Below are positions 50,232 through 64,000 of a stretch of DNA of 64,000 nt, in pieces (positions within the stretch are counted from its first letter, which is position 1; the number at the start of each line of letters is the position of its first letter). Source of the DNA: Ignavibacteriales bacterium (GTDB taxonomy: Bacteria > Bacteroidota > Ignavibacteria > UBA10030); assembly GCA_026390595.1 (NCBI GenBank), contig JAPLFQ010000005.1, positions 248,001-312,000 of the forward strand, written 5' to 3'. Below the pieces are notes generated by a model that saw only the letters and a list, made by a program, of their open reading frames with translations, was not told the origin of the DNA and ran no database searches. Position numbers and translations under genes: made by a program.

Positions 50232-53200
50232 ATGAGATCCTCCTGGTGCAAAGTTCTCCTGATACTCTTGATTATCCTTGCCATCCCAGCGCTCCTGTTT
50301 GCTGGGAACGGAAAAATTTCCGGGACGGTAAAGGACGCTACCACCAAGGAAGCCGTTGTTGGTGCAAACGTGGTTATCGTAGGCACGACGATGGGTGCGG
50401 CGACAGATGCCGAGGGGCGGTATTACATCCTGAACGTACCTCCCGGGACGTATGCCGTGCAGGCATCCGTTGTTGGGTATGCGCGTTTAGAGGTCGGCGG
50501 TGTTCAGGTGCGTGCCGATCAGACCTCAGACCTAAATTTCGATCTACGCCAAGAAACAATCGAACTCAAGGAAGTGGTCATTCAGGCGCAGATGAGAGTG
50601 GTTGACAAATCTCAAACATCTTCCAAGTCGACCATCGGAAAAGACGAATTGTCAAACAAACTGCCGATCACCGGAGCCTTGGAAGTCTTGAACACCACGC
50701 CCGGAGCATTCAAAGGGTTCGTGCGCGGCGGCAAGATCACGGAAACCAAGACCATCGTTGACGGTGTCGACATCAGCGATCAGTACTATGCCATCGGCGG
50801 AGACCAGGCGAACCAGGGAATCTTGTACTCTTCCGGGCTTGTGACTCGCTACAGAGATTACCAATTGAGCACAAACGCCACCGTCACCTTCAACGCGGTT
50901 GAGCAGCTCTCCGTAAACACCGGAGCCACAGGCGCAGACAATGCGTCAGCGACAGCTGGTATCATCAACTACGCTCTCCGTGAAGGACGCGGAAAGCTCT
51001 CGGGCAGCTTCTCCGCCCGAGTAAGTCAGTTGAGTGGGCTCAAGTACGACGGTCCGGATCTTTACTGGAATGACCAGGTTTACTATGACGAGAAGAATGC
51101 AACGCAGGCTCGTCTTGCAGCGAATAAAGCACTCCAGGCGACGGCACCGACAGCTGCCCGCCAATTGGCAATTACCCCGGATAGTATCAAGAGCTTGAAA
51201 TACACGTACTACACGGGAAAATACCTAAACAACGACAAGCCCGTGATCGATGTCGACGGGATGATCAGCGGCAGCATCACCGATAATTGGGGATTCATGC
51301 TGAGCGGCAAATACTATGACTCCCACGGACGCTTGCCGAACGAACACTCTCAGCAGGCCGACCTGACATTCAAGACGACCTACAACCTGAGCAAGTCTTT
51401 CAAGATCAATGCATTTGGCATCTTGAATGACAGAGGTTACATCTTCGGCTGGAAGAACTCCTACTATAATGACAAGGCCAGGCTTTTCCTGGAAGGCGTT
51501 CCCAAGAGCGATGGATTTAATTTTGTTGGAAGCCTCAAGGCCACCCACATGCTCTCCCAGTCATCGTTCTATGAAATTCAGCTCAGTCACACGTATCGTC
51601 AGGATCGCTACGGGTATTCCGACGATAACGGTGACGGGATCTGTGCCCTCAATGAAAACGGGGAGTTCCTGACGCTGGAAAAAACGGCCGATGCCGAGAA
51701 GTACATCTCACGCTCTGGTATTGACCTGTTTAAGTTCTTCCGTATCGGTGACGAAGCGGGTCCGAGCTTTATCACACAGCCAATGACCGCGGGCAACGGA
51801 CAGATCCTGATCACACGCCCAACGTTCTATTATGAGAACACAAAGAACATCGTTACGACGGCCAAGTTCGATATCACCAGCCAGGTTGACTACAACAACC
51901 AGTTGAAAGCTGGAGTCTCCTTCCAGTTCAACGATATCAGCAAGGTCCAGAGAAATTCGAGCCTTGGCTCCGATGCGACGGACGTTCTCAGAAAAATGCT
52001 CGTTGAAAAATGGCAGTTCTACCCGACGCAATTCGGCGGCTATGTTTCGGACCGCATGGAATATGCGGGCCTCGTCATCAACCTTGGCGCGCGAATCGAC
52101 CGATGGGATCCCAAAGCAGCAGACTGGGCCAATTACTACAACCTGTTCGTTCTGACGAACAATGTTCAAATTGACGACAGCTTGCGCAAGGAACTGCTCC
52201 CGATCCGGGGCAAGGATGACGTAAAGCCATACTGGTTCTTCTCACCGCGTATCGGTGTGTCGCACCCGATCTCGGACGAAGCTGCGATGTACTTCTCCTA
52301 TTCACGCAACTCCATTCCGCCGCCATTCTCACGCCTCTACGGAAGCTACAATGCCGTTCTCGGCGCAGCCGGTCAATTACCGCAGTTCGCAAGCTTGAGG
52401 CAGGAGCCAGTCCGATCCTCGAACTACGAACTCGGTGCGCAATGGGAGTTTGTCCCGAAGAAGTTCGGATTGACGTTCACCGCATACATGCGTGACATCG
52501 AGAACTACAGCCAGAACGCAGTGACGCTGAACCTGGCCAACGGATCAAACGCCATGTGGGTCAGCGGGCAATATGCTGATGCACGCGGTGTTGAGTTCGG
52601 CATCCAGGCGCTGCGTCAGACCTATTTCGATTTCGTTACCGTCTATGGTCGTTTGAACTACTCGTACAGCTACATCAAGCAAACGGGCTGGACAGGAAAC
52701 GATGCGCTGCAGCAAACCACCTTCTCGCGTCCCGATACCCTGAAGTATGGAAACACGCTGCCGTTTGATGATCTCTGGGCCTATAACAAGGTTGAGACCA
52801 ATGTAACCGGCGGCAGTAACCTGCTGACAGGCGGATACGATCGCGCTCACCGCATCAGTTATGTTCTGTTCCTTGAATTCCCGTACCAGGTCATGGTCTC
52901 CTCTGTCGGCACGTTCCAAAGCGGATTCTACTATCCGTTGAGCGTGACCGTCGATCCGCGTGTTGCCGGCCGCGACTTTGGACAGGCGCCGTGGAACAAG
53001 ATGGTTGACTTGCGCGTGGAAAAAGGGTTCACACTCAACAATATTCACTTCGCGGTGTTCTTCGACCTGAAGAACGCGTTCGGCTGGAAGAACATCATCG
53101 GCTACGACAACACGGCCTCCGGCGCACAGCTCTGGGAATATTCTGCTGCTGGAATCGCGAAGTTGAATGACGGCACAATTGATCCTACGGGTTCCTACAA

Positions 53201-53279
53201 GCGCGCGGTGTACTACGATGGAAGTCCGTTCTACGACATTCCGAGTGAATACTACTTCGGCGTGAGGATTGATTTCTAA
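50232..53279 (+). CDS. TonB-dependent receptor with N-terminal regulatory-like domain (cassette B, gene 1)
   Basis: A 1,015-residue outer-membrane receptor: signal peptide (KVLLILLIILAIPALLFAG), carboxypeptidase-regulatory-like domain (about residues 27-107; KISGTVKDATTKEAVVGANV), plug (about 125-260; LPITGALEVLNTTPGAF, VRGGKITETKTIVDGVDISD and NASATAGIINYALREG), and a barrel ending YYFGVRIDF. It matches the cassette A receptor in layout but the plug and barrel sequences differ widely. AAGGAG lies seven bases before the ATG. The secreted partner gene starts 46 bp after the stop. The substrate is unknown. Confidence 0.93.
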   Translation: MRSSWCKVLLILLIILAIPALLFAGNGKISGTVKDATTKEAVVGANVVIVGTTMGAATDAEGRYYILNVPPGTYAVQASVVGYARLEVGGVQVRADQTSDLNFDLRQETIELKEVVIQAQMRVVDKSQTSSKSTIGKDELSNKLPITGALEVLNTTPGAFKGFVRGGKITETKTIVDGVDISDQYYAIGGDQANQGILYSSGLVTRYRDYQLSTNATVTFNAVEQLSVNTGATGADNASATAGIINYALREGRGKLSGSFSARVSQLSGLKYDGPDLYWNDQVYYDEKNATQARLAANKALQATAPTAARQLAITPDSIKSLKYTYYTGKYLNNDKPVIDVDGMISGSITDNWGFMLSGKYYDSHGRLPNEHSQQADLTFKTTYNLSKSFKINAFGILNDRGYIFGWKNSYYNDKARLFLEGVPKSDGFNFVGSLKATHMLSQSSFYEIQLSHTYRQDRYGYSDDNGDGICALNENGEFLTLEKTADAEKYISRSGIDLFKFFRIGDEAGPSFITQPMTAGNGQILITRPTFYYENTKNIVTTAKFDITSQVDYNNQLKAGVSFQFNDISKVQRNSSLGSDATDVLRKMLVEKWQFYPTQFGGYVSDRMEYAGLVINLGARIDRWDPKAADWANYYNLFVLTNNVQIDDSLRKELLPIRGKDDVKPYWFFSPRIGVSHPISDEAAMYFSYSRNSIPPPFSRLYGSYNAVLGAAGQLPQFASLRQEPVRSSNYELGAQWEFVPKKFGLTFTAYMRDIENYSQNAVTLNLANGSNAMWVSGQYADARGVEFGIQALRQTYFDFVTVYGRLNYSYSYIKQTGWTGNDALQQTTFSRPDTLKYGNTLPFDDLWAYNKVETNVTGGSNLLTGGYDRAHRISYVLFLEFPYQVMVSSVGTFQSGFYYPLSVTVDPRVAGRDFGQAPWNKMVDLRVEKGFTLNNIHFAVFFDLKNAFGWKNIIGYDNTASGAQLWEYSAAGIAKLNDGTIDPTGSYKRAVYYDGSPFYDIPSEYYFGVRIDF

Positions 53280-53325
53280 GAGAACGACACTGGCTGTGAA
53301 CCATACTATTAATGGGAGTAACATT

Positions 53326-55893
53326 ATGAACATGACAAGACAGAAAGAATTGCTCTTCGCGATTCTTGCTCTATTGCTCGTTGTCGTTCCGGCAACATTG
53401 TTTGCCCAGACGGCACCCGCCACCTCGACGGTAAATTACCCGGGTGGTGGTGTGATTCAGGCGGGCGATACGTGGGAATCATTCCTGCCGATGAGCTTTA
53501 CGCCAAGCTACAGCGACGCAGGTACATACCTGACTCAAGGCTATAAGAACTTCATTCGCCTTGGCAACTTCGACCGCGCCTGGTCAACCCCGGCTACGCA
53601 CTGGCCGGCAGCGTGGTTCTATACAAACTACTGGTACAAAAACGCATGGGCCGGAGCATTCGATCCGGATCCAAACTTCTGTCCCACACAGATCGGTGGC
53701 AAGGCCAACCCCAGCTATTTTTCTGCGACCGCAGGGGGTAACAACTACGCGCAGGTGCAGTATATGCCCACACTGCAGGGTGGCACCGATGCCGCCCGCC
53801 ACTATACTGTCGAGCCATACTGGGTCGACAACACTCGGCGGCAGCACGCGGTATACGAAGCGGCATTCCCCAGCAATCTGGGTCTCGACGTAAAGATGCG
53901 CGCCCACGGTTTCCAGGGACCGAACTGGAACAACCTGAACGACTTCGTCATACTTGAGATCGAGTTCAAGAACACCGGCGTCCTCGACATGAACATGGAT
54001 GGTGTCGCCGAGAAAGTGAACAACACGATCAAAGCGCTGGCGTTCAGCTTCACAGAAGAGCGATATATGTCGGTTGGAAGTTATGGCGGCGGTGGACGAA
54101 ACAACAATGATATTACGTTGACGCCCCTCGTAGCTCAGGGAGCATGGGTCGAGGATGCTGATGCCTCCGGTTCACCCTGGGCGTTTGCTACGATGTATCC
54201 CGCCTGTTCGGTCTTAAACCCCACAGCCGGAAATGTCGATATCGGATTCAATACCGGTGCCAGGAAGTGGTATACAGATACCTGGTCTGGCTTTGTTATC
54301 ATCGACGTAAAGAGCGGGAGCCTGCCGACGGATCGTTCGAAGTCGGTTGTCGGCAATGCTACAAAGCAAACCATCTATGGCACAGACCCAATCGGCGTCG
54401 GTGCGCAGCGTGGATGGTACATGTCCTCCGGAAGCCAGGCCCAGCTTTGGGGGTCCAGCAATCCGAAGGCACAGTTCCTGACGGCGACCGGAGCATGGTT
54501 CCTCGATGCCGGAAGAAGCCGACAAACAGACGCGACCAACTTCAATCTCAGTCCCAATCCGAACTTCTTCTCCGGCGGCATAGCAGGCGACATGACGACG
54601 TTTGTGCCGAAAACAACCGGAGCCGGACGACCGGATGGAGACTTCAAGAGCACGAACATTTTTGATAACCCGTCGTACGAAGACGGCAAAGCTGATGCGA
54701 CGACGAACTACCCGACCGGTTGGGGAAAATTCTCCAAGGGAGCAAGCAACACTGAGAACTTCAATGGAGACATGTTCGCCGGTGTAGGTCCGTTCAGTCT
54801 CGCCCCGGGCGAGTCCATGGTCATCACCATGGCGACCGTTGCAGGATTTCGCCTCGAAGGTATTCAAAAGGCAGTCCGCGCAGCACGCTGGGCATATGCA
54901 CAGAACTACGTTCTTCCCGTGCTTCCACCGTTGCCCGACATGAAGGTTACGAACACGTTGACAAAGTCGGTTGCTGTGGAATGGGATACGCGAGCCGAAG
55001 CTGAACCCGGTTTCGCAGGATACAAAATCTACAAGTCCTCACAATATCTCAAGAAGTACTTCCTGGAAGATGGCATGCGCGTTTCCGACCGGTATCAGGA
55101 GAACATGACACCGGGACCGCTTCCCGCAAACCTGAAGAAACCGGTCAATCCGAAGTTTGACGCGTTTGGTCAGGTCAATGCGACCGCATCCCAGGGATCA
55201 TACCAGCCCGACACGTGGGGCACATGGGATCTGGTTGCGGTCATTCCGACTGCTTCGAAGTCAACCTATGCAACAGGGGCCTCACCCGGATACACATATC
55301 GTTATGAGGACAAAGATGTTGTTCTCGGATTCTCCTACTGGTACTATGTTGCTGCCTACAAAGAAGGCACCTTTACCGGTCCGGATGGTGAGACAACCAC
55401 ACGCATCGAGACGCACTCGACCAACAGAAACGGCGCGACAGGCTTATGGGCGCTCACGTACCCGTTCGCAATCCAAAACGCCAACTTTGGAAAGACCGCA
55501 ACGACTGATGCAGCCGCAAGTGCTGCAGGCATGAAGAACGTCGGTGCAGTGCAGATCGTGTACTCGGCGCTTGCTCCGGCCGGCAGTGTGGGCACCGTTG
55601 GAGTCCGTCCGAATCCGTATAAGAGAGCGGCTTTGCACGACAACAGGGCGAATGTATATGATCACAAGCTCCTGTTCTACAACCTGCCGCCGTCATGCAA
55701 GATCACCATTACCGACGTATCAGGGCAGATCATTGATGTCATCAATTTCAGTTCGACCGATGCAAACCGCGGCAGCACATTCTGGGATATGTTCTCCAAG
55801 GATGGTCTTGAAGTCGCGAGCGGTCTCTACCTGTACGTCGTCGAATCGCCGACAGGAGACCGGAAGATCGGTCAATTCTCCATCTTACGATAA
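53326..55893 (+). CDS. T9SS-type secreted protein with FN3-like and sorting domains (cassette B, gene 2)
   Basis: An 855-residue exported protein with signal peptide (ELLFAILALLLVVVPATLFA, then Q). The large N-terminal part is unrecognised and rich in Trp, Tyr, Asn and Gly. An FN3-like module lies near residues 540-590 (SVAVEWDTRAEAEPGFAGYK). The C-terminal end resembles a T9SS sorting domain: VGVRPNPYKRAAL, CKITITDVSGQIIDVINFSS, VASGLYLYVVES and a final KIGQFSILR. ATG 53326 has GGGAG upstream; the frame is open 19 codons further, overlapping the receptor gene, and is rejected. The order receptor, this gene, PorV-like barrel repeats cassette A, and the FN3-like and C-terminal modules are similar to those of the cassette A protein. 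Confidence 0.82.
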   Translation: MNMTRQKELLFAILALLLVVVPATLFAQTAPATSTVNYPGGGVIQAGDTWESFLPMSFTPSYSDAGTYLTQGYKNFIRLGNFDRAWSTPATHWPAAWFYTNYWYKNAWAGAFDPDPNFCPTQIGGKANPSYFSATAGGNNYAQVQYMPTLQGGTDAARHYTVEPYWVDNTRRQHAVYEAAFPSNLGLDVKMRAHGFQGPNWNNLNDFVILEIEFKNTGVLDMNMDGVAEKVNNTIKALAFSFTEERYMSVGSYGGGGRNNNDITLTPLVAQGAWVEDADASGSPWAFATMYPACSVLNPTAGNVDIGFNTGARKWYTDTWSGFVIIDVKSGSLPTDRSKSVVGNATKQTIYGTDPIGVGAQRGWYMSSGSQAQLWGSSNPKAQFLTATGAWFLDAGRSRQTDATNFNLSPNPNFFSGGIAGDMTTFVPKTTGAGRPDGDFKSTNIFDNPSYEDGKADATTNYPTGWGKFSKGASNTENFNGDMFAGVGPFSLAPGESMVITMATVAGFRLEGIQKAVRAARWAYAQNYVLPVLPPLPDMKVTNTLTKSVAVEWDTRAEAEPGFAGYKIYKSSQYLKKYFLEDGMRVSDRYQENMTPGPLPANLKKPVNPKFDAFGQVNATASQGSYQPDTWGTWDLVAVIPTASKSTYATGASPGYTYRYEDKDVVLGFSYWYYVAAYKEGTFTGPDGETTTRIETHSTNRNGATGLWALTYPFAIQNANFGKTATTDAAASAAGMKNVGAVQIVYSALAPAGSVGTVGVRPNPYKRAALHDNRANVYDHKLLFYNLPPSCKITITDVSGQIIDVINFSSTDANRGSTFWDMFSKDGLEVASGLYLYVVESPTGDRKIGQFSILR

Positions 55894-55918
55894 TAAAATA
55901 ACTATGAGGGCAAGATCT

Positions 55919-56959
55919 ATGAAAAAGATCTCTTCACTATCGATTGTGGCTTTGCTCCTCGTGGTTTTTGCCACCGGGATCGTGACCGCCCAGACGCGCA
56001 AGGCTGGTATCAACAGCGCTGCGTTTCTGAAGGTCGGCGTGGGGGCACGGCAGGTTGGCATGGGCTCAGCTGTCACATCTTCGAATGGAGACGTGACGAA
56101 CATGTTCTGGAACCCAGCCGGTGTCGCTCTGCGCGACGAGAAAGCCCAAGTATCATTCACGTATAATTCATGGATTGGAGGTCTGTCACAGAACGCGTTC
56201 GCCGGGTCCTACAAGCTGGAAGGGATCGGCACGATCGGCGTTGGTGTCATGACTTTCGGCATGAGCGGTATCATCGCCGATCGCGATGTGTACCCCGGGA
56301 ACACCGTGCTCCAAGGTTTACAAATTGATCAGGCCAGTGCAGATACCTATGACTATATGGATATGCTTGCGCAAGTGACGTACTCCACATATGTCATGGA
56401 TCGCCTGACGCTCGGCGCGTCGGTGAAACTGATCAGCGAGAAGATCGATGACATGAACGCCACCGCGGTCGGCTTTGACCTCGGTTCGGTGTACAACATC
56501 GGTCTTCTGAACTGGAGTATCGGTGCCCGCATCACCAACCTGGGAAGCGACATCAAGTTCTACGATTACGCCTCCCCGATTCCGCTGACGTTCAGCATGG
56601 GAACATCGCTGACACCGATTCACGTTGGAGATAATTCCATCACGTTTGCGATCGATGCCGTGAAGCCGCAAGATGGTCAGCAGTACTACTACACCGGCAT
56701 GGAATACAACTTCAATAACATGATATTCCTCCGTGGCGGTTGGAAGCTGAACTACAGTTACCTCGGAATGGCGGGTGACGGTATTGATCAGGGAACATCT
56801 CAACGCATGGGAGTCCAGACGAGCCTTGAAAAAGGATCGTTGGGAGCCGGCGTACGAGTGCCGATGTCTGATCTGATGCTCTCTCTCGACTATTCGTACA
56901 CGGTGTTCAGCTCCTTCTCCGATGTACACCGGATTACGCTGCACGTATCAATGAAGTAA
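55919..56959 (+). CDS. PorV/PorQ-family outer-membrane barrel (cassette B, gene 3)
   Basis: A 346-residue protein with signal peptide (ISSLSIVALLLVVFATGIVT, then AQ). The PorV-like opening is SAAFLKVGVGARQVGMGSAV then NGDVTNMFWNPAGVA, the family hallmark. The barrel region has DRLTLGASVKLISEKIDDM and LNWSIGARITNLGSDIKFYD, and an aromatic-rich C-terminus. ATG 55919 is preceded by GAGGGC; a long in-frame extension upstream overlaps the cargo gene and is rejected. The gene begins 25 bp after the cargo stop and is followed by a terminator. As in cassette A, it may be a cargo-specific T9SS shuttle. Confidence 0.9.
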   Translation: MKKISSLSIVALLLVVFATGIVTAQTRKAGINSAAFLKVGVGARQVGMGSAVTSSNGDVTNMFWNPAGVALRDEKAQVSFTYNSWIGGLSQNAFAGSYKLEGIGTIGVGVMTFGMSGIIADRDVYPGNTVLQGLQIDQASADTYDYMDMLAQVTYSTYVMDRLTLGASVKLISEKIDDMNATAVGFDLGSVYNIGLLNWSIGARITNLGSDIKFYDYASPIPLTFSMGTSLTPIHVGDNSITFAIDAVKPQDGQQYYYTGMEYNFNNMIFLRGGWKLNYSYLGMAGDGIDQGTSQRMGVQTSLEKGSLGAGVRVPMSDLMLSLDYSYTVFSSFSDVHRITLHVSMK

Positions 56960-57155: not shown

Positions 57156-58190
57156 TTGACCCCAGAGAATCTTCCCCTGCTGCCGACGAGCGTCATCGGC
57201 AGCTATTCTTTTCCGCGCTGGCTTGACCACGTACGTGAATTGGGTGCAACGGGCGTTCTGACGCCTGATCAGGTGCGGGAGGCGCACGACAACGCAGTAA
57301 AGTCGGTGATCAAGGACCATGAACTGGCCGGCGTCGATATCATCACGGACGGGGAAATCCGGCGCGAGACGATGGTGTACTTCTTTTCGAAACGCATACG
57401 CGGTTTCGATTTTACTCAATCCAAGATGCACGCGATTGGAAACCTCGATCCGTCGATTCAGATGGCGGATCCCGTCATCACCGAAAAAGTGCAATGGATG
57501 CAGAACCTGACCATGGACGAGCATTTCAGGTTTCTGAAAGAACACGCCGTCGCGCGCACCAAAGTCTGCGTCACCGGACCGCAGATGCTTGCCAAGCGCG
57601 CAACGAACGAATACTACAAAGACGAGAAAGAACTTGTTTTCGACCTGGCAGACATTCTGAACAAAGAACTGAAAGGACTTGTCGCCGCCGGATGTGAATT
57701 CATACAGATCGACGAACCGGTCTGGGTCGGTTTCCCGCAGGACATGCCGTGGCTTGTCGAGTCATTCAACAGACTCGTTGATGGAGTCCAGGCAAAGATT
57801 GCGCTGCACGTCTGCTATGGCAACTATCAGCTCAAGAAGCTATTCAAAGGCCAGTATGCAGAACTCTTCCCCGCGATTCTGGAGACGAAGACCCAGCAGC
57901 TGTGCCTCGAATTCGCGGTGTCTGACGGCGTGGGATTGGAGATCTTCCAGCAGCACAAAACAGACAAAGACATTGCCGTCGGTGTGATTGATGTGAAGGA
58001 TGAAAAGGTCGAAACCCCTGAGGTCGTTGCGCAGCGTATCCGGCAGGCGTTGAAATTCATCCCTGCAGAAAAGATGACAATCGTGCCGGACTGCGGCATG
58101 AAATTTATGCCGCGCGATCGGGCATTTGGAAAACTGAAGGCAATGGTGGAGGGAACGAAAATCGTGAGAAGAGAACTGGCAGGAAGTTGA
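57156..58190 (+). CDS. Short MetE-like cobalamin-independent methyltransferase
   Basis: A 344-residue TIM-barrel protein matching only the catalytic C-terminal half of MetE (full MetE is about 750 residues). It begins LLPTSVIGSYSFPRWL, as MetE-C domains do. The four zinc ligands are present: His218 and Cys220 in LHVCYGN, Glu252 in LEFAVSD, and Cys313 in PDCGMKF. IQIDEPVW is the substrate-site motif. Such core-MetE proteins transfer methyl groups to homocysteine or related thiols, often from a donor other than methyl-THF. The start is TTG, with AAGGAG seven bases upstream. It opens the methyltransferase/glycosidase cluster and may use methyl groups made there; that link is inference. Confidence 0.85.
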   Translation: MTPENLPLLPTSVIGSYSFPRWLDHVRELGATGVLTPDQVREAHDNAVKSVIKDHELAGVDIITDGEIRRETMVYFFSKRIRGFDFTQSKMHAIGNLDPSIQMADPVITEKVQWMQNLTMDEHFRFLKEHAVARTKVCVTGPQMLAKRATNEYYKDEKELVFDLADILNKELKGLVAAGCEFIQIDEPVWVGFPQDMPWLVESFNRLVDGVQAKIALHVCYGNYQLKKLFKGQYAELFPAILETKTQQLCLEFAVSDGVGLEIFQQHKTDKDIAVGVIDVKDEKVETPEVVAQRIRQALKFIPAEKMTIVPDCGMKFMPRDRAFGKLKAMVEGTKIVRRELAGS

Positions 58191-58195
58191 AAAAC

Positions 58196-58295
58196 GAACC
58201 GCCAAGCACGCCAAGCGGCGCCAAGAAAAGAATGAGAGAATCTGCTTCTGCATAATTCCAACCCGCTTAGCGTCCTTGGCGCCCTTTGCGGTTCA
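58196..58295. repeat. Imperfect inverted repeat of CGCCAAG units
   Basis: Left arm 58196-58225 (GAACCGCCAAGCACGCCAAG and on) contains three CCAAG-type units; right arm 58264-58295 is its degenerate reverse complement, ending GCGGTTC. It lies between the MetE-like gene and the next gene. Confidence 0.7.
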
Positions 58296-58305
58296 TCTTT
58301 ATCTC

Positions 58306-60180
58306 TTGAACTTAGAATTTGGCCTTAGAGGTGTACAAATTTCCACTTTTCTCTGGCTACGGAACCTGAGTGATTTCCTTGTCGGAAGCCTCCGAAGTGC
58401 CCGGCGTTTCGACGGAGAAGCCTACATACACCAGCTTGCCGAACAAGGGTTCACTCATGTGACAGTCAACGGTTTAGGCGTTGACCGGCCGTTCGAAAGC
58501 GGGCCACCAGGGGACGTGTATTCATGGTTCTATGACTACAGTCCCGACCTTGATCAGTTTGTGTCGAGCCCGCTCATCGAAGGATACTACCCCAAAGAGT
58601 ATCTCAAGGCAAATCTCGATTTTCTGAAATCAAATTCCGCTCTCGCTGTGAAGCATGGACTTGTCCCGGGACTCCACATCAACTCGCCTCGCTCAATGCC
58701 TGAAGAATTCTGGATGAAGTATCCATTCCTGCGAGGGGCGCGGGTCGATCATCCGAGAGAAAGCTTCCGGCCCCGCTACACGCTCGCCATGGCGCATCCC
58801 GTTGTGCAACAGCATTACCGTGCATTGGTCCAGAATCTGATGGCGGAGGTGCCGCAGCTCGGATTTATCCACATTTGGACCAACGACAGTGGGTCCGGTT
58901 TCGAGTTTGTCACATCGCTGTATGCCGGCAGGAACGGAGGCCCCTATTTGATCCGTGAGTGGAAGGGGGACGACGAAATTGCCCGAAAAGCCGCGGACAA
59001 TGTGCTGACATACTATCGCATTCTGCGGGATGAAACAAGGCGGGTCAATCCGGCATGCCGGGTGGTCTGTGATCTTGGGCCATTCTACGCGGAGCGCAAG
59101 TACATTGCACCCGGACTCGGCGACGGGCTTGACGCGGGGGCGTTTGGCGGCTTCGAAGGCTCCGAGAGCAGGCAAGAACAAGAAACGCTGAAGAAGTCGG
59201 GCGCTCTGGTTCACGCCAAACTTGATCTTGCGGATAACAATGTGCTGGGTCTCCCGTATCCGGCTCTTGTCCATGAACGTCTCCGGGATGCGGCCAAATC
59301 CGGCGTGACGTGTTTGCTGGTAAATAGTGCGCCAAAGTCCCTCGTGCCGTACGATATCAACGGGGAAGTGCTTCGATCATTCCAGCAGAACCCGGAACAA
59401 TTGTTTGAGGACATGCTGCTCGATGCTGCACGGGCTTGGGTTGCCGCGCCGCTTGCCCAAGACCTTGTGAGATTATGGATGCTGTCTGATGCGGCGGTCC
59501 GCGCCTACCCCTCGGGCGTTCCATACAGCACCTTTGCATTTCCGTGGTTCCGTTTCTGGGTGAGGCCGTTTGTACCAAATATCGGGGCGCTCCCGGAAGC
59601 AGAGCGGTCGTACTACGAACAGTTTCTCCTCGCAACCTTCAACAATCCGGCCCGTGTCGATCTCAACAACGACATGATGTGGAATTTCCTCACTGTGAAG
59701 GAGGCCGGGGAAAAACGCGAAGCAATTGACCGGAACGTTGTTTCTCCGCTGATCGAGGCGCTCGAAGCGGCAACAACACTGCTTCAGGGACTGACCCGGA
59801 CAGAACCCACCAGGAAGGTATTTGAGGATGTACGTGACCGCCTCCGTGCCGCGCTCTGCTATTTCGTGACAATGCGCAACAGTGTAGCGTGGACGGAATC
59901 GGTGCATGGGCATCTGGAAGCACAATCGATGAGCGAGAAAGAACGGTTTAGGTCGCTCTGCCGGGCAATGATCACAAGTGAACTTGAGAACGCAAAGAAC
60001 CTGCTGAAGCTGTGGAATGAAAGCAGTATCGATTGGTTGCCGGTCTCGACGTCAGGAGAATCGCTCCACATCTATGGCGATAACTTTGGCGATCTCGTGC
60101 TCCGAAAGATTACGTTGATGCAGCACCACATCGATGACGAACCGTACATCGACAAAGAGTTCATGTGGAGAATGAAGTAG
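58306..60180 (+). CDS. Probable TIM-barrel glycoside hydrolase-like protein, start uncertain
   Basis: About 625 residues with no signal peptide and no confident family. Near the N-terminus are ISTFLWLRNLSDFLVG and AEQGFTHVTVNGLGVD, like the start of an (alpha/beta)8 barrel; later GFIHIWTNDSGSGFEF has the look of an active-site loop. The second half is helical. The pattern vaguely recalls GH20/GH67-type enzymes, but I do not assign a family. There is no ATG near the 5' end: the frame is open from a TTG at 58276 inside the inverted repeat, and TTG 58306 is the next choice, with no clear ribosome binding site. The N-terminus may be truncated. Confidence 0.65.
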   Translation: MNLEFGLRGVQISTFLWLRNLSDFLVGSLRSARRFDGEAYIHQLAEQGFTHVTVNGLGVDRPFESGPPGDVYSWFYDYSPDLDQFVSSPLIEGYYPKEYLKANLDFLKSNSALAVKHGLVPGLHINSPRSMPEEFWMKYPFLRGARVDHPRESFRPRYTLAMAHPVVQQHYRALVQNLMAEVPQLGFIHIWTNDSGSGFEFVTSLYAGRNGGPYLIREWKGDDEIARKAADNVLTYYRILRDETRRVNPACRVVCDLGPFYAERKYIAPGLGDGLDAGAFGGFEGSESRQEQETLKKSGALVHAKLDLADNNVLGLPYPALVHERLRDAAKSGVTCLLVNSAPKSLVPYDINGEVLRSFQQNPEQLFEDMLLDAARAWVAAPLAQDLVRLWMLSDAAVRAYPSGVPYSTFAFPWFRFWVRPFVPNIGALPEAERSYYEQFLLATFNNPARVDLNNDMMWNFLTVKEAGEKREAIDRNVVSPLIEALEAATTLLQGLTRTEPTRKVFEDVRDRLRAALCYFVTMRNSVAWTESVHGHLEAQSMSEKERFRSLCRAMITSELENAKNLLKLWNESSIDWLPVSTSGESLHIYGDNFGDLVLRKITLMQHHIDDEPYIDKEFMWRMK

Positions 60181-60190
60181 ACAAAGTGTA

Positions 60191-60241
60191 AGTTGGTAGT
60201 TTCGAGTTTCAAGTTTTGAGTTCAAAGTTTGGAGTTTGAAG
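60191..60241. repeat. Degenerate AGTTTGAG-type direct repeats
   Basis: The stretch has five or six short units such as AGTTTC, AGTTTTGAG, AGTTCAAAG and GAGTTTG in a row, in the gap before the UROD-like gene. It is the only such low-complexity stretch noticed. Confidence 0.5.
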
Positions 60242-60292
60242 GCTCACGTTGAACGCTTCACCATTCACTTGTTCTAACCAGGGACAACCATC

Positions 60293-61453
60293 GTGCTTCA
60301 TCGCGTAGACATCCGATATCCAATCAGCGAGATGGAGAAGAGCAGAAGGAGGATGGAGGCAGCTCACAGGTTTCAGTGGTACGACAGGGCTCCGGTGTTC
60401 TTGGGGATAGAGGCGCGCTATCTTCTGCATGAGCGGGGAGTGACATTCGCGGAGTACTTTTCAGATCCCAAAACACAGTTCATTCACCAACTCGAAAACC
60501 TTAAGTGGCGCATCGAAAACACCCCGGATGATTGGTTCACACAACCCATTCTTACCATTTCTCCAGATTTTCAAAATGTCACAAACGCCAGCGGCTGCGG
60601 GGGAGAAATCTACTGGCAGGAGAACGAGACTCCGCAGGTCATCCCGCGCATCGGCACGATCGACGAACTTGCGGTCTATACGCTGCCGGATTGGCGTGAC
60701 AGCTTGTGGGGAAAAAAGCTGAGTTGGTTCCATGAGATGAAGCGCCTCTCGGAGGAGGTGGATCTTACACTGAATGGAGAACGCATTCCCATCCATGTAA
60801 CGATCGGGATCAACGCCGACAGTCCGTTCATGACGGCAATTGACCTTGTGGACACGAATTTCTACACTTGGATGCTTGAAGCGCCGGACCTTTGTAAGGT
60901 CTTTCTCCAGAAGATCACAGACCGTTTCATCGAGGTCGAAACCGGCTTCCGGAAGGTGGTCGGCCGCCCTGAGCAGGACGGGCTCTGCTATTCCGATGAC
61001 TCTGCACAGATTATTTCGCTCGATCAGTACCGTGAATTCTGTGTACCCTCCGGCAGGCGGCTCTACGATCTCTTCGGCACAGATCGTCATGATGGCAGGA
61101 TGATGCATTTATGTGGCAGAAACGTGCATTTGCACGAAGCTCTTCTCAATGATCTTCACATCACACAACTGACCGGCTACGGTTCTGGGAATGCGCCCGA
61201 AGAAATGCACGTGCTTGCAGGAAAAATCCTGTTACACGGGAATGTCGACCCGATGACGCTTTTCGAGGGATCGGTGCATGACGTTGAGCAGGAAACGGCC
61301 AAAATACTGGAAGTATTGGCAGTGCATGGCGGCATCATCCTTGGTGACGGTTATAACGTTGTTCCAGCTTCGCCTCTCTCCAATCTTGACGCTGTCCGTA
61401 AAACAAGCGAACGATTTGGACTCCCTGTTGGTAAGAGTCACATGCACACCTGA
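60293..61453 (+). CDS. UROD/MtaA-superfamily methyltransferase-like protein
   Basis: A 386-residue protein of the uroporphyrinogen decarboxylase superfamily, which also holds the corrinoid methyltransferases MtaA, MtbA and CmuA. Family signatures: HLCGRNVHLHEALL with the His272-x-Cys274 metal pair, LLHGNVDPMTLFEGS, and GGIILGDGYNVVPASPLSNL near the C-terminus. In MtaA-type enzymes a third zinc ligand (Cys) falls in that last motif; here the position appears to be Tyr354. So metal binding and methyl transfer are not certain. It is unlikely to be HemE. It starts with GTG after AGGGA; ATG 60332 is an alternative. It sits between glycosidase-like genes, 15 bp before the next one. Confidence 0.85.
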   Translation: MLHRVDIRYPISEMEKSRRRMEAAHRFQWYDRAPVFLGIEARYLLHERGVTFAEYFSDPKTQFIHQLENLKWRIENTPDDWFTQPILTISPDFQNVTNASGCGGEIYWQENETPQVIPRIGTIDELAVYTLPDWRDSLWGKKLSWFHEMKRLSEEVDLTLNGERIPIHVTIGINADSPFMTAIDLVDTNFYTWMLEAPDLCKVFLQKITDRFIEVETGFRKVVGRPEQDGLCYSDDSAQIISLDQYREFCVPSGRRLYDLFGTDRHDGRMMHLCGRNVHLHEALLNDLHITQLTGYGSGNAPEEMHVLAGKILLHGNVDPMTLFEGSVHDVEQETAKILEVLAVHGGIILGDGYNVVPASPLSNLDAVRKTSERFGLPVGKSHMHT

Positions 61454-61468
61454 GAACAAAGAACCCCG

Positions 61469-63049
61469 ATGAAAGAAACAGCGATACAATGCGGTCACCC
61501 ACAACTTGATGCGCTCTATCCGAGGATCAAGAAGTTCCTCATGAGTGATGTCACCGAATACAACATGTTCGGAACAAAGGTCCGGGGATATCGCACTCCC
61601 GATACGCCGAGTCTCTGGATTCGCGACTACTCGGACATGATGCGCGGTTTCCGGTACTGGGAAACCGACATGAAGAGCATCGTCGATCACTTCGCCGAGA
61701 CCCAGACAGCCCGGGGATGGATTTTCGACTACTTCACCATGACGCCGGAAAAAGTACCGTGCGAGAGAGAAAACTGGGCGAAGTACGTCCGCGTGCCGGT
61801 TGAAGCGGATGTAGAGTTTCGGTTCATCAAAGCCATCTATCTCGCGTGGCAGGCGACAGGCGACGACCAGTGGGTGAAGAGCCTCATGCCGGTTGTCGAG
61901 AAGGCTCTCAACTACGTTCTGACGGATGATTGGCGCTGGGACAAGAAGACAAAGCTTGTGAAAAGGGGATACACGATCGACACGTGGGACTTCGATTACA
62001 CCGCAGGACGCCACCCGTGGCTGAATTTCCAGATCAACGATGATACGTACTGGGGAATTATGCACGGCGATAGCTCGGGCTTTTACGAAGCGTTTTCCCA
62101 GGTTGCGACGATATACTCAACGCTTGGTGTCCGGAAGCGTGCGCTGCACTGGAAGACATTCGCCGAGGCGTTCCGGCGCCGCGCAAACAAAGTCTCCTTC
62201 AACGGGCGGTTCTATACACACCACGTTCATCTTGTTCCGGTCATCATCGACGGGGTCGACGAAGCGGAACAAATTAGTCTCAGCAATCCGATGAACATCA
62301 ATCGCGGATTGGCAACGCACGACATGGCTGTCAGCATCATCAAAGAATATCAGAAAAGGGGAAAGGCATTGTCGGCTTTTGCAGATTGGTTCAGCATCGA
62401 TCCGCCGATGCCGGACGGAATCTATGGTGACGAGAAACTCGTAGCAGGCGCCTACTGCAATGGCGGTCTTCTCCCGCTGGTTGGGGGAGAACTTGCGCGC
62501 GCGGCCTTTGAGCACGGGTTTGAAGAATACGGCGTCGAGCAATTGTTGAAATATGAAAGCCTGACAAGAAACAATGAGACGTACTTATGGTACTTCCCGG
62601 ACGGCAGGCAGTCGACGGTCGAGACGAGCACAAGTCCGGACGCGTCACCAACGGATGGTTGGGGTTCCTCCGCAATGTTGTACGCATTGATGGAGGGGTT
62701 GGCGGGAGTCGTGGATCAGCACAAGCTCCTTCAGAAGGTCCGGCTCTCTCCCCGATGGATTGCCGCGGGAAGAAACGAAGCGTCGGTACGCACGTCCTAC
62801 GGCGCGTCGGGCGCATCGTTTGAGTATTCCTTTGGACACAACGAATCAACGAAGACCATCGAGCTAGACCTGAGCGGATCATCATCAACAAGTCTTCACA
62901 CACTCCTTCCGCGCGGGACAATGGCCACGGCAGTGACAGTCAACGGAAAGAAGACACGGTTCACCAATAAGACGGTCGAAGACAGTCCCTATGTCGACGC
63001 AGATGTTGAGGTAAAGAAGAAGGCTGTCGTCGAAATCCGATATCGATAG
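61469..63049 (+). CDS. Six-hairpin (alpha/alpha)6-barrel glycosidase-like protein
   Basis: A 526-residue protein without a signal peptide. It is rich in aromatic and acidic residues, with SLWIRDYSDMMRGFRYWETD in the first helical pairs, TWDFDYTAGRHPWLN, and the helix-loop stretches YWGIMHGDSSGFYEAFSQVA and MAVSIIKEYQKRGK. The C-terminal part (about residues 430-526) is a beta-sandwich. This pattern fits the six-hairpin glycosidase superfamily (for example GH63/GH78/amylo-glucosidase-like), but the exact family is not evident. The substrate is unknown. The start ATG lies 15 bp after the UROD-like stop and the next gene is 11 bp downstream, so the three are one operon. Confidence 0.75.
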   Translation: MKETAIQCGHPQLDALYPRIKKFLMSDVTEYNMFGTKVRGYRTPDTPSLWIRDYSDMMRGFRYWETDMKSIVDHFAETQTARGWIFDYFTMTPEKVPCERENWAKYVRVPVEADVEFRFIKAIYLAWQATGDDQWVKSLMPVVEKALNYVLTDDWRWDKKTKLVKRGYTIDTWDFDYTAGRHPWLNFQINDDTYWGIMHGDSSGFYEAFSQVATIYSTLGVRKRALHWKTFAEAFRRRANKVSFNGRFYTHHVHLVPVIIDGVDEAEQISLSNPMNINRGLATHDMAVSIIKEYQKRGKALSAFADWFSIDPPMPDGIYGDEKLVAGAYCNGGLLPLVGGELARAAFEHGFEEYGVEQLLKYESLTRNNETYLWYFPDGRQSTVETSTSPDASPTDGWGSSAMLYALMEGLAGVVDQHKLLQKVRLSPRWIAAGRNEASVRTSYGASGASFEYSFGHNESTKTIELDLSGSSSTSLHTLLPRGTMATAVTVNGKKTRFTNKTVEDSPYVDADVEVKKKAVVEIRYR

Positions 63050-63060
63050 GAAGCGCCACC

Positions 63061-64000
63061 ATGAAAAGAAGAGACTTTCTTAAAGCTCCCGCAGCAGCAG
63101 GAGCTCTGCTCGGTACCAGCCTCCAGTTTGGAGAGGTTTCCGCAAAAGAAGAATTGTCGCCAACCCCTCAGGATCAGGTAAAACCGGAGAACCTGCAGCG
63201 CATGCACCCGGATTTTATTACATGCCTGCCCGGTGTCGAATATTTCTTCTTTGGCAATGGCGACATCACGGGGGTGGTTCAACACTGCCCGAAAGACAGC
63301 AGCGGATCATTCCTCGGATTTACGTTCATGAATCCGGGGCTCTTCAGCAGAAAATGGAGCACCTATCTCTATCATCCCGAGCGGGGTTTTACGAACACGC
63401 GTTTTGGCGTTACAATTGAAGAAAGCGAAACAGGCAGCCCCAAAAAAGACGGAATGTACACCGGCGTAAAGGGGTATTCGGTCACGCCCGAGAATTTCGT
63501 ATCGATGCAATGGAAATACACCGAAAACGTCCCGATTGCTTCTCTTCACTGGAAAGCCGGAGAGTGCGAGATAGAGGAGGAGTTCTTTGCTCCGAGCGAG
63601 GGGTCTGTTCTTTTCCGGAGGGCAACCGTGAAGAACGCGTCAGCCAGACCGCTGCGTGTTCGTCATGGCCTGTCGTTGTATGCGAACTTCGGTCTCTTTG
63701 ATCAAATCTATGTCGATGAAAAAGAGAAGGCGGCCTTCGCACGCGGACTTGCAAAGATGAAATTGTTCACGCTTGAAAAAGAGGCAACCGTCGCCGGTCG
63801 TTACGATGTGCGCGTTGACGCCGGAATCATTGCTCCGGGCGAGTCACGCCAGGCAACATACGTGTACTGCCTGAATGACGGAGAGAAAATATTCAAGAAA
63901 AAAACCTTCGAGGTCCTTTGGAAGAACACCGTACGCTATTGGAGCGCAAAGGGGATTCTGGAAACCGGCAACAAAGAATTTGACGATCTCTGGAAGGTCT
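63061..64000 (+). CDS. Tat-exported glycoside hydrolase-like protein (runs off the right edge)
   Basis: The first 313 codons are in the window with no stop. The N-terminus MKRRDFLKAPAAAGALLGTS is a twin-arginine signal (KRRDFLK plus hydrophobic stretch), so the protein is exported folded. The rest is beta-rich (HPERGFTNTRFGVTIEES, RRATVKNASARPLRVRHGLS), like the N-terminal beta-sandwich of GH65/GH94/GH15-type enzymes, and ends NKEFDDLWKV, as if entering an (alpha/alpha)6 barrel. The catalytic region is outside the window. It starts 11 bp after the preceding glycosidase gene with GGAAG upstream. Family and substrate are not assigned. Confidence 0.75.
   Translation, partial: MKRRDFLKAPAAAGALLGTSLQFGEVSAKEELSPTPQDQVKPENLQRMHPDFITCLPGVEYFFFGNGDITGVVQHCPKDSSGSFLGFTFMNPGLFSRKWSTYLYHPERGFTNTRFGVTIEESETGSPKKDGMYTGVKGYSVTPENFVSMQWKYTENVPIASLHWKAGECEIEEEFFAPSEGSVLFRRATVKNASARPLRVRHGLSLYANFGLFDQIYVDEKEKAAFARGLAKMKLFTLEKEATVAGRYDVRVDAGIIAPGESRQATYVYCLNDGEKIFKKKTFEVLWKNTVRYWSAKGILETGNKEFDDLWKV

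Follow-up and report, generated by a model that had tools for sequence, protein, structure and literature searches.

A one-strand glycan-catabolic island of Ignavibacteria with a candidate corrinoid methyl-transfer module

Several described systems resemble parts of the gene cluster analysed here. MtaB, MtaC and MtaA form the methanol methyltransferase system of methanogens and acetogens. The core methionine synthases (core-MetE/MesB, MesA, MesC and MesD) accept methylcobalamin in vitro, while their donors in vivo are probably corrinoid proteins; MesB and MesC accompany the Wood-Ljungdahl pathway, MesA occurs in methanogens and MesD in aerobes (PMC7857596, PMC7005905). Type 1 mlp clusters contain UROD-family methyltransferase homologues, a corrinoid protein and an activase, and no folate methylase is part of the clusters described (PMC10418091). 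The glycine betaine system MtgBCDE feeds methyl groups from catabolic demethylation into methionine via a corrinoid protein (PMC12478193). The one enzymatic sugar O-demethylation met in the literature searched is that of 6-O-methyl-galactose by a P450 monooxygenase of a porphyran locus, which gives formaldehyde and involves no corrinoid (PMC10033563). MtaB and glycosidases have been reported from one phylum, in separate sections of the text (PMC8065059). Here we analysed a window of 64,000 nucleotides (G000:C5:248001-312000) from the draft genome of an Ignavibacteriales bacterium (4.77 Mb, 36 contigs, 95.7% complete), whose right end encodes a core-MetE protein, a UROD-superfamily protein and three glycosidase-type proteins.

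This cluster represents the left end of a catabolic island of 65–75 kb on one strand. The presence of a dedicated methyl-transfer module inside this glycan-catabolic island is well supported, because all 25 genomes with core-MetE have it within the island and the island-type MtaB occurs only together with core-MetE or UROD. The island resembles the MtaB–MtaC–MtaA system in uniting UROD-family proteins, a corrinoid protein of two domains and an MtaB that has kept its zinc ligands, but it sits in a Bacteroidota glycan locus with core-MetE, its MtaB stays below the methanol equivalog cut-off, its MtaC scores nearer to MtgC and its second UROD protein (UROD2) lacks the HxC motif. The window core-MetE agrees with the core methionine synthases in size, zinc ligands and homocysteine residues, whereas it differs from the Mes enzymes in belonging to a glycan island, in a genome without a CdhC-type match, and in scoring under the curated cut-offs. 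The activase of the type 1 mlp clusters has no counterpart among the named island genes, and the words “glycoside” and “sugar” are absent from the main text of the respective paper (PMC10418091). MtgBCDE relies on another donor enzyme, and its MtgE corresponds to the homocysteine module of MetH and not to a core-MetE (PMC12478193). The porphyran locus has demethylation built into a polysaccharide locus as well, but with monooxygenase chemistry (PMC10033563). The island thus combines elements of known systems in an arrangement that was not found in the open literature searched: judged from titles and the beginnings of abstracts, none of the papers retrieved describes such an island, and nothing was found on UROD proteins with glycosidases or on polysaccharide loci with a corrinoid protein and a methionine synthase.

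The preliminary description of the window had reported a five-protein cluster on one strand, and all five open reading frames (ORFs) are present on the plus strand between 57156 and 64000: core-MetE (57156..58190), the 634-aa TIM-barrel glycosidase-type protein GHx (58276..60180; start codon uncertain), the MtaA-like UROD protein (60293..61453), the 526-aa six-hairpin glycosidase-type protein 6hpGH (61469..63049) and the 759-aa Tat-exported glycosidase-type protein TatGH1 (63061..64000 and on to C5:313340). The intergenic gaps from core-MetE rightward amount to 85, 112, 15 and 11 bp, including the 15 bp between UROD and the six-hairpin gene noted before. Core-MetE (344 aa; PF01717, 148 bits, covering 9–334) corresponds to the catalytic half of MetE only, i.e. 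it has the zinc/homocysteine methyltransferase fold and lacks the folate half. All four zinc ligands attributed to it earlier are present (H218, C220, E252, C313) and invariant in 21 aligned sequences with identities down to 63%. The same holds for the homocysteine residues S16, E67 and D186, which line up with 3RPD, the best match in the PDB; the alignment with 3RPD and PMC7857596 were used to verify the residue positions. The protein remains below the curated NCBIfam cut-offs for methionine synthases (PRK04326, 327.5 vs 406 bits; PRK09121, 206 vs 392 bits).

Our conservation sample comprised 150 genomes, including the own one. Core-MetE is present at an identity of at least 63% in 25 of them (own genome included), and four weaker matches range from 26 to 35%. 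The ORF caller picked the antisense frame at times (e.g. for core-MetE in L050, L065, L103 and L104), and the genes concerned were placed by tblastn. All 25 loci were read: the neighbours lie on the same strand, PorV is located upstream in 23, and GHx follows downstream in 20 and 6hpGH in the remaining five. Core-MetE is hence inside the island throughout, and a housekeeping function was therefore ruled out. The neighbourhood, which the preliminary description had proposed to examine for conservation, is preserved, and neither core-MetE nor the window UROD groups with a housekeeping family; with the HemE model the latter reaches 20.6 bits (cut-off 303). The six-hairpin gene occurs in 29 genomes, 15 of which have core-MetE only, five UROD only, seven both and two neither. 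Core-MetE is accordingly found in 22 of the 29 genomes with 6hpGH vs three of the 121 without it, and those three have GHx beside core-MetE. These loci and this co-occurrence show that core-MetE belongs to the island, while UROD is an extra component present in some of the lineages. Within the conserved neighbourhood UROD and core-MetE are thus separable; a role of the two as mutual substitutes was considered and is not shown by the 15/5/7/2 pattern. Across the families f1, f5, f6 and f20, core-MetE, GHx, 6hpGH and MtaB occur or are missing as a set, and it is this joint distribution that carries weight, not adjacency.

No B12-binding domain was found in the window, all seven matches of the genome being located elsewhere, in agreement with the earlier statement that a corrinoid gene is lacking there. 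The preliminary description had also anticipated that the cluster continues to the right, towards a corrinoid protein and further glycosidases. TatGH1 (full ORF, L009 7061–9340) is indeed followed on C5 by a cysteine-desulfurase-family pyridoxal-phosphate (PLP) enzyme, an FGGY kinase, an Rbs-type ABC transporter, a sodium symporter, a LarA homologue, a xylose-isomerase-like TIM barrel and, near the contig end, a second Tat glycosidase-type protein; no corrinoid protein was found on the C5 stretch right of the window. The PLP enzyme (L009 9344–10627) carries, by reading, a Tat-type leader and shows SufS/PvdN-like scores that are all below cut-off.

In two relatives, G002 (contig C14) and G003 (C56), the cluster extends along a single strand past the symporter, LarA, an IclR regulator, the TIM barrel and the second Tat protein, and continues beyond it into the genes that make up contig C4 of the studied genome G000. 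These comprise DUF4432, Gfo/Idh oxidoreductases, a heparinase II/III-type protein, a class III aminotransferase, an amidohydrolase, GH38, an enolase-superfamily protein, an FAA hydrolase, GH3, a DHOD-like protein, a cyclase, an M20 peptidase, ROK and PfkB kinases, UROD2, the corrinoid protein, MtaB, the glycosidase-type protein GH777 and a glycerate kinase; a DeoC-type aldolase is part of the island in G000 and G002 and was not seen in G003. The span from SusC to MtaB amounts to about 66 kb in G002 and about 62 kb in G003 and is unbroken on one strand. Both islands carry UROD, 6hpGH, MtaC and MtaB, and core-MetE is present in G002 and was not found in G003. In G071, a genome of another family, SusC, core-MetE, GHx, 6hpGH, MtaB, a UROD, GH777 and glycerate kinase share a single strand over about 55 kb. 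In G000, the sequences at the right end of C5 and at the left end of C4 both read like parts of a transposase resembling those of insertion sequences (end of L010, start of L112), and a similar ORF is present at C4:59 kb; we take these fragments to be IS3-like. The end of C5 thus appears to meet the start of C4, an insertion having presumably broken the assembly between neighbouring genes. The anticipated corrinoid protein and additional glycosidases were hence retrieved by synteny with G002 and G003 and not by direct contig continuity. Of the reactivator sought in the same direction, no representative was seen among the named island genes, and reactivator-type proteins are encoded elsewhere in the genome.

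MtaB on C4 matches PF12176 with 526 bits and has retained its zinc ligands E, C and C, presumably equivalent to Glu164, Cys220 and Cys269, which are invariant in 13 orthologues. One solved relative was found, PDB 2I2X, which we take to be MtaB of M. barkeri. The MtaC-like corrinoid protein contains both B12 domains (PF02607 and PF02310) and the DxHxxG motif in the form DMHDIG. Island-type MtaB (at least 65% identity) is present in 18 of the 150 genomes, all of which have core-MetE or UROD. Of these loci 14 were read; 11 are flanked by island genes, and the three without (G036, G080, G086) border a contig end or lie on a contig that is itself very short. Eight more genomes harbor an MtaB at 42–49% identity, four of them without core-MetE or UROD; in G010 and G021 this type is associated with another UROD and a corrinoid protein, with no clear island gene. 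A different MtaB (47–48%) with its own HxCG-bearing UROD3 and corrinoid protein was observed in L094 and L107, outside a clear island context. A short corrinoid protein, defined by an open frame of at most 546 aa, was found among the 100 genomes in the matches listed in all 28 with core-MetE or UROD and in at least 28 of the 72 others (Fisher p ~2e-9, with relatedness ignored and the association partly built in).

The observed gene content, one-strand order, catalytic residues and set-wise presence or absence of the genes suggest that the bacterium strips methyl groups from its glycan food and reuses them. The glycan would be taken up by the TonB/SusC-type system and cleaved by GHx, 6hpGH, TatGH1 and further enzymes; its sugars would be imported via the Rbs-type ABC transporter and sodium symporters and finished by the kinases, the aldolase and sugar-acid enzymes. 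MtaB would transfer the methyl group of the glycan, derived from an ether or, in the form of methanol, from an ester, to the cobalt that the MtaC-like protein carries, and the methyl-corrinoid would be discharged by zinc-thiolate enzymes. Core-MetE, drawing on this corrinoid protein, would occupy the role of MtaA in methanogens and convert homocysteine to methionine, and UROD may pass the methyl group to, or load it from, some thiol or substrate. Substrate, donor and direction are those that we infer, with a methyl group that would originate from the glycan and end on homocysteine. The idea of the preliminary description that methyl groups are removed from methylated glycans and fed to methionine is thereby partly supported, namely by the corrinoid protein and the additional glycosidases found by synteny and by the conserved neighbourhood. 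That this large island of Ignavibacteria serves a complex, probably uronic-acid-containing glycan and that its own corrinoid module works as proposed is, in our view, an evenly balanced proposition. The more specific version, a B12-dependent and O2-free removal of methyl ethers from sugars or sugar acids by MtaB-type and UROD-type enzymes onto the corrinoid protein, with core-MetE passing the methyl group to homocysteine, we consider unlikely.

Several observations weigh against the proposed scheme. MtaB on C4 scores 428.7 bits against a cut-off of 720 for the methanol equivalog (NF040651), and for the MtaC-like protein the MtgC models give better scores than the MtaC models, none of them reaching its cut-off. 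The third zinc ligand is missing from the window UROD, and UROD2, which neighbours MtaC in the island, is devoid of HxC in seven of seven sequences. Eight of the 30 genomes with core-MetE or UROD gave no MtaB, and neither UROD nor MtaC nor MtaB was seen in the examined stretches of G131 and G140. The co-occurrence with corrinoid proteins is partly built in, MtaC itself being located in the island of some genomes, and p-values are uncorrected for descent. In a control with MetH from 14 relatives the downstream gene was matched in 11 and other neighbours in up to eight; adjacency alone is weak evidence, because the genomes are related and the neighbours of this control are conserved as well. Finally, none of the island genes points directly to a methylated substrate.

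Of the three glycosidase-like proteins claimed earlier, GHx and 6hpGH have predicted glycosidase folds and the Tat signal of TatGH1 was confirmed (TIGR01409, 20.3 bits vs a cut-off of 16.7), whereas none has a sequence match in support: no Pfam match over cut-off was obtained for GHx, 6hpGH or TatGH1, and no credible relative among PDB sequences (two searched as single sequences, all three as profiles), the best match, that of TatGH1 to dextran dextrinase at E 0.013, not being credible. The AlphaFold model of GHx (mean confidence score, pLDDT, of 80) matches GH138 (Z 15.2; 497 residues, root-mean-square deviation 5.1), GH115 (Z 14.3) and a GH67-type alpha-glucuronidase (Z 13.8) at 8–12% identity, with GH20/GH84 hexosaminidases scoring nearly as high. 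Several enzymes of the GH138, GH115 and GH67 types act on uronic acids, at which the modelled fold of GHx hints as substrates. For 6hpGH (pLDDT 75), whose predicted fold is GH78-like, the top Foldseek matches are alpha-L-rhamnosidases (GH78; E 4e-12, 12% identity). GH777 (L016 11908–14241), a GHx paralogue with 37% identity and an extra N-terminal domain, has no credible relative among PDB sequences either; GHx and GH777 constitute an island-conserved protein family without a Pfam match. Polymers of plants, algae and bacteria commonly contain methylated sugars and methyl esters, and the island would be compatible with a methylated polymer that includes uronate and deoxysugar. A PhyH-type dioxygenase gene was observed upstream of 6hpGH in some genomes (L052 5044–5814, PF05721; similar-looking ORFs by reading at L063 13750 and L065 10844), and an oxidative alternative via such an enzyme is conceivable.

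The genes could alternatively serve the breakdown of a methyl-esterified polyuronide, in which methanol released from the esters is caught by MtaB and MtaC and delivered to methionine or methyl-tetrahydrofolate (methyl-THF), with no ether demethylation and with UROD as an auxiliary methyl acceptor enzyme. We regard this as a serious possibility, somewhat short of even. It is favoured by the family membership and zinc ligands of MtaB, by the heparinase II/III-type protein of the island and the uronidase-type fold of GHx, which both point to uronic acids, and by pectin methanol being a known substrate of anaerobes (PMC13391211). At C5:134–137 kb (L088), moreover, a PF00809 pterin-binding protein, a MetV-like ORF (by reading), MTHFR and a corrinoid protein are encoded in a row that represents a possible methyl-THF entry. 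No methylesterase was found among the scanned island proteins, several of which remain without a name, and MtaB falls short of the methanol equivalog cut-off, which both argue against this alternative.

A second alternative concerns the window UROD (PF01208, 90 bits), which may not be a methyltransferase at all and may catalyse, without its third zinc ligand, another step on sugar acids, e.g. decarboxylation or lyase chemistry. The His-x-Cys pair ascribed to this protein is indeed retained, as an HxCG motif (H272-x-C274-G) that is invariant in 16 sequences with identities down to 29%, and the preliminary description had missed that the third zinc Cys of MtaA is lost, being replaced by Tyr354 and in relatives by Phe, Ser or Asn. 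The residues D235, D236, D352 and N355 are invariant in the same 16 sequences and could, as a guess, substitute for the third ligand. The replaced ligand is compatible with a different chemistry, as are the weak score with the mtaA_cmuA model (TIGR01463, 38.2 bits, below the cut-off of 235.4), the presence of UROD in just 12 of the 29 six-hairpin genomes and the varied motifs of its homologues: the genome encodes 20 PF01208 proteins with very varied zinc motifs, and three of them have HxC and the third Cys (C5:43670, C21:75091, C20:112918). The strict conservation of HxCG over such distances speaks against it. So do the best NCBIfam scores, which fall on corrinoid methyltransferases (55.6 and 38.2 bits) vs 20.6 bits for HemE, all below cut-off. 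Orthologues (at least 59% identity) were found in 12 of the 150 genomes including the own one, and four more proteins reach 29–33%, two of which (L056, L058) have a short corrinoid protein encoded only a few kb away and thus likewise favour methyl transfer. A non-methyltransferase UROD hence seems rather improbable to us. Identity with HemE itself was rejected on the basis of the model TIGR01464 (20.6 bits, cut-off 302.95). Eight of the 20 homologues match this model, with 93.8 bits at best against the required 303, so that no HemE is evident in the draft genome. No plasmid homologues of the window UROD were found.

The third alternative regards core-MetE as an accessory methionine synthase with another donor that is not linked to MtaC and has been kept since the island is inherited as a block. 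Core-MetE is present without a detected MtaB in seven genomes (G011, G054, G083, G096, G097, G131, G140), it was not found in the five UROD genomes with the six-hairpin gene, and the surroundings of MetH are conserved too. Its confinement to the island, however, and an active site that is invariant over a class-level distance speak against such a role, and the short corrinoid protein accompanies it in 23 of 23 core-MetE genomes (among the 100 genomes). The same direction is indicated by its redundancy: a MetH-sized frame (921–1244 aa) with B12 domain is present in at least 14 of 23 core-MetE genomes, a frame of 570–606 aa in at least five of 23, and the two core-MetE genomes outside these 23, G131 and G140, have full-length MetE frames, so that many of the core-MetE genomes have MetH or MetE as well. 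We therefore hold the accessory function to be doubtful. A donor of the CoFeSP kind proposed for MesB is unlikely in this genome, because PF03598 (CdhC-type acetyl-CoA synthase) had no match in the 95.7% complete assembly, the control matching in two methanogens. MesX (PF08908) had no match in the genome, and the control genomes gave none either. Among 395 genomes, 13 of the 18 matches represent distant core-MetE proteins (35–42% identity), and no match to GHx, 6hpGH or PorV was obtained among the called ORFs of these 13 neighbourhoods; the presence of the same island around distant core-MetE of other Bacteroidota was rejected on these grounds. In seven of eight inspected genomes of family f49 (L160, L163, L165, L167, L168, L170, L171), a distant core-MetE (37–42%) was seen near a gene for a protein of 639–682 aa and a TonB receptor with 23–24% identity to SusC. 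That unrelated genes were kept together by descent alone in a slowly rearranging clade, as the conserved MetH control neighbourhood might suggest, is improbable, given that the set is patchy in f1, f5, f6 and f20 and its members are present or absent together.

On the left, the island starts on the same plus strand with a SusC-like TonB-dependent outer-membrane receptor (50232..53279; PF13715 75 bits, PF00593 58 bits), homologues of which are located upstream of core-MetE in relatives. It is followed by the island-conserved, exported 874-aa protein Sus874 (53269..55893, plus strand; 5' end uncertain) with a sub-threshold C-terminal FlgD_ig match, and by a PorV-like outer-membrane protein (55886..56959, plus strand; PF19572, 28.9 bits vs a cut-off of 27; 5' end uncertain). 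Sus874 occupies the usual position of SusD and shows no match to it; of the SusC and SusD pair that defines a classical polysaccharide utilization locus, the SusC-type receptor is thus present and a SusD match is absent. Neither the window nor eight further stretches from the island gave an Rfam match at the gathering threshold, and riboswitch control of the island was dropped as an explanation.

Further methyl-handling genes are scattered over the genome. RACo is encoded on C20 and a MetH-sized frame with B12 domain on C19. A second methyl-transfer locus at C21 68–83 kb (L013) contains a corrinoid protein, a stand-alone MetH activation domain (PF02965), a homocysteine S-methyltransferase and three URODs, one with the full HxC..C, together with a GH38 and a GH78-type protein; a PfkB sugar kinase and a GH3-like ORF were recognised there by reading. 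Gene sets partly similar to this locus were observed in L056, L058 and L097. Given these genes elsewhere in the genome, methionine and methyl-THF are both possible as sinks.

If the proposed scheme is true, the coupling of glycan breakdown to corrinoid methyl transfer would represent a route of methyl removal without O2. It would explain why a gene resembling methionine synthase travels with glycosidases, and it names a defined set of proteins. For core-MetE, the island would constitute a new setting, outside the Wood-Ljungdahl and methanogenic settings of MesA to MesC.

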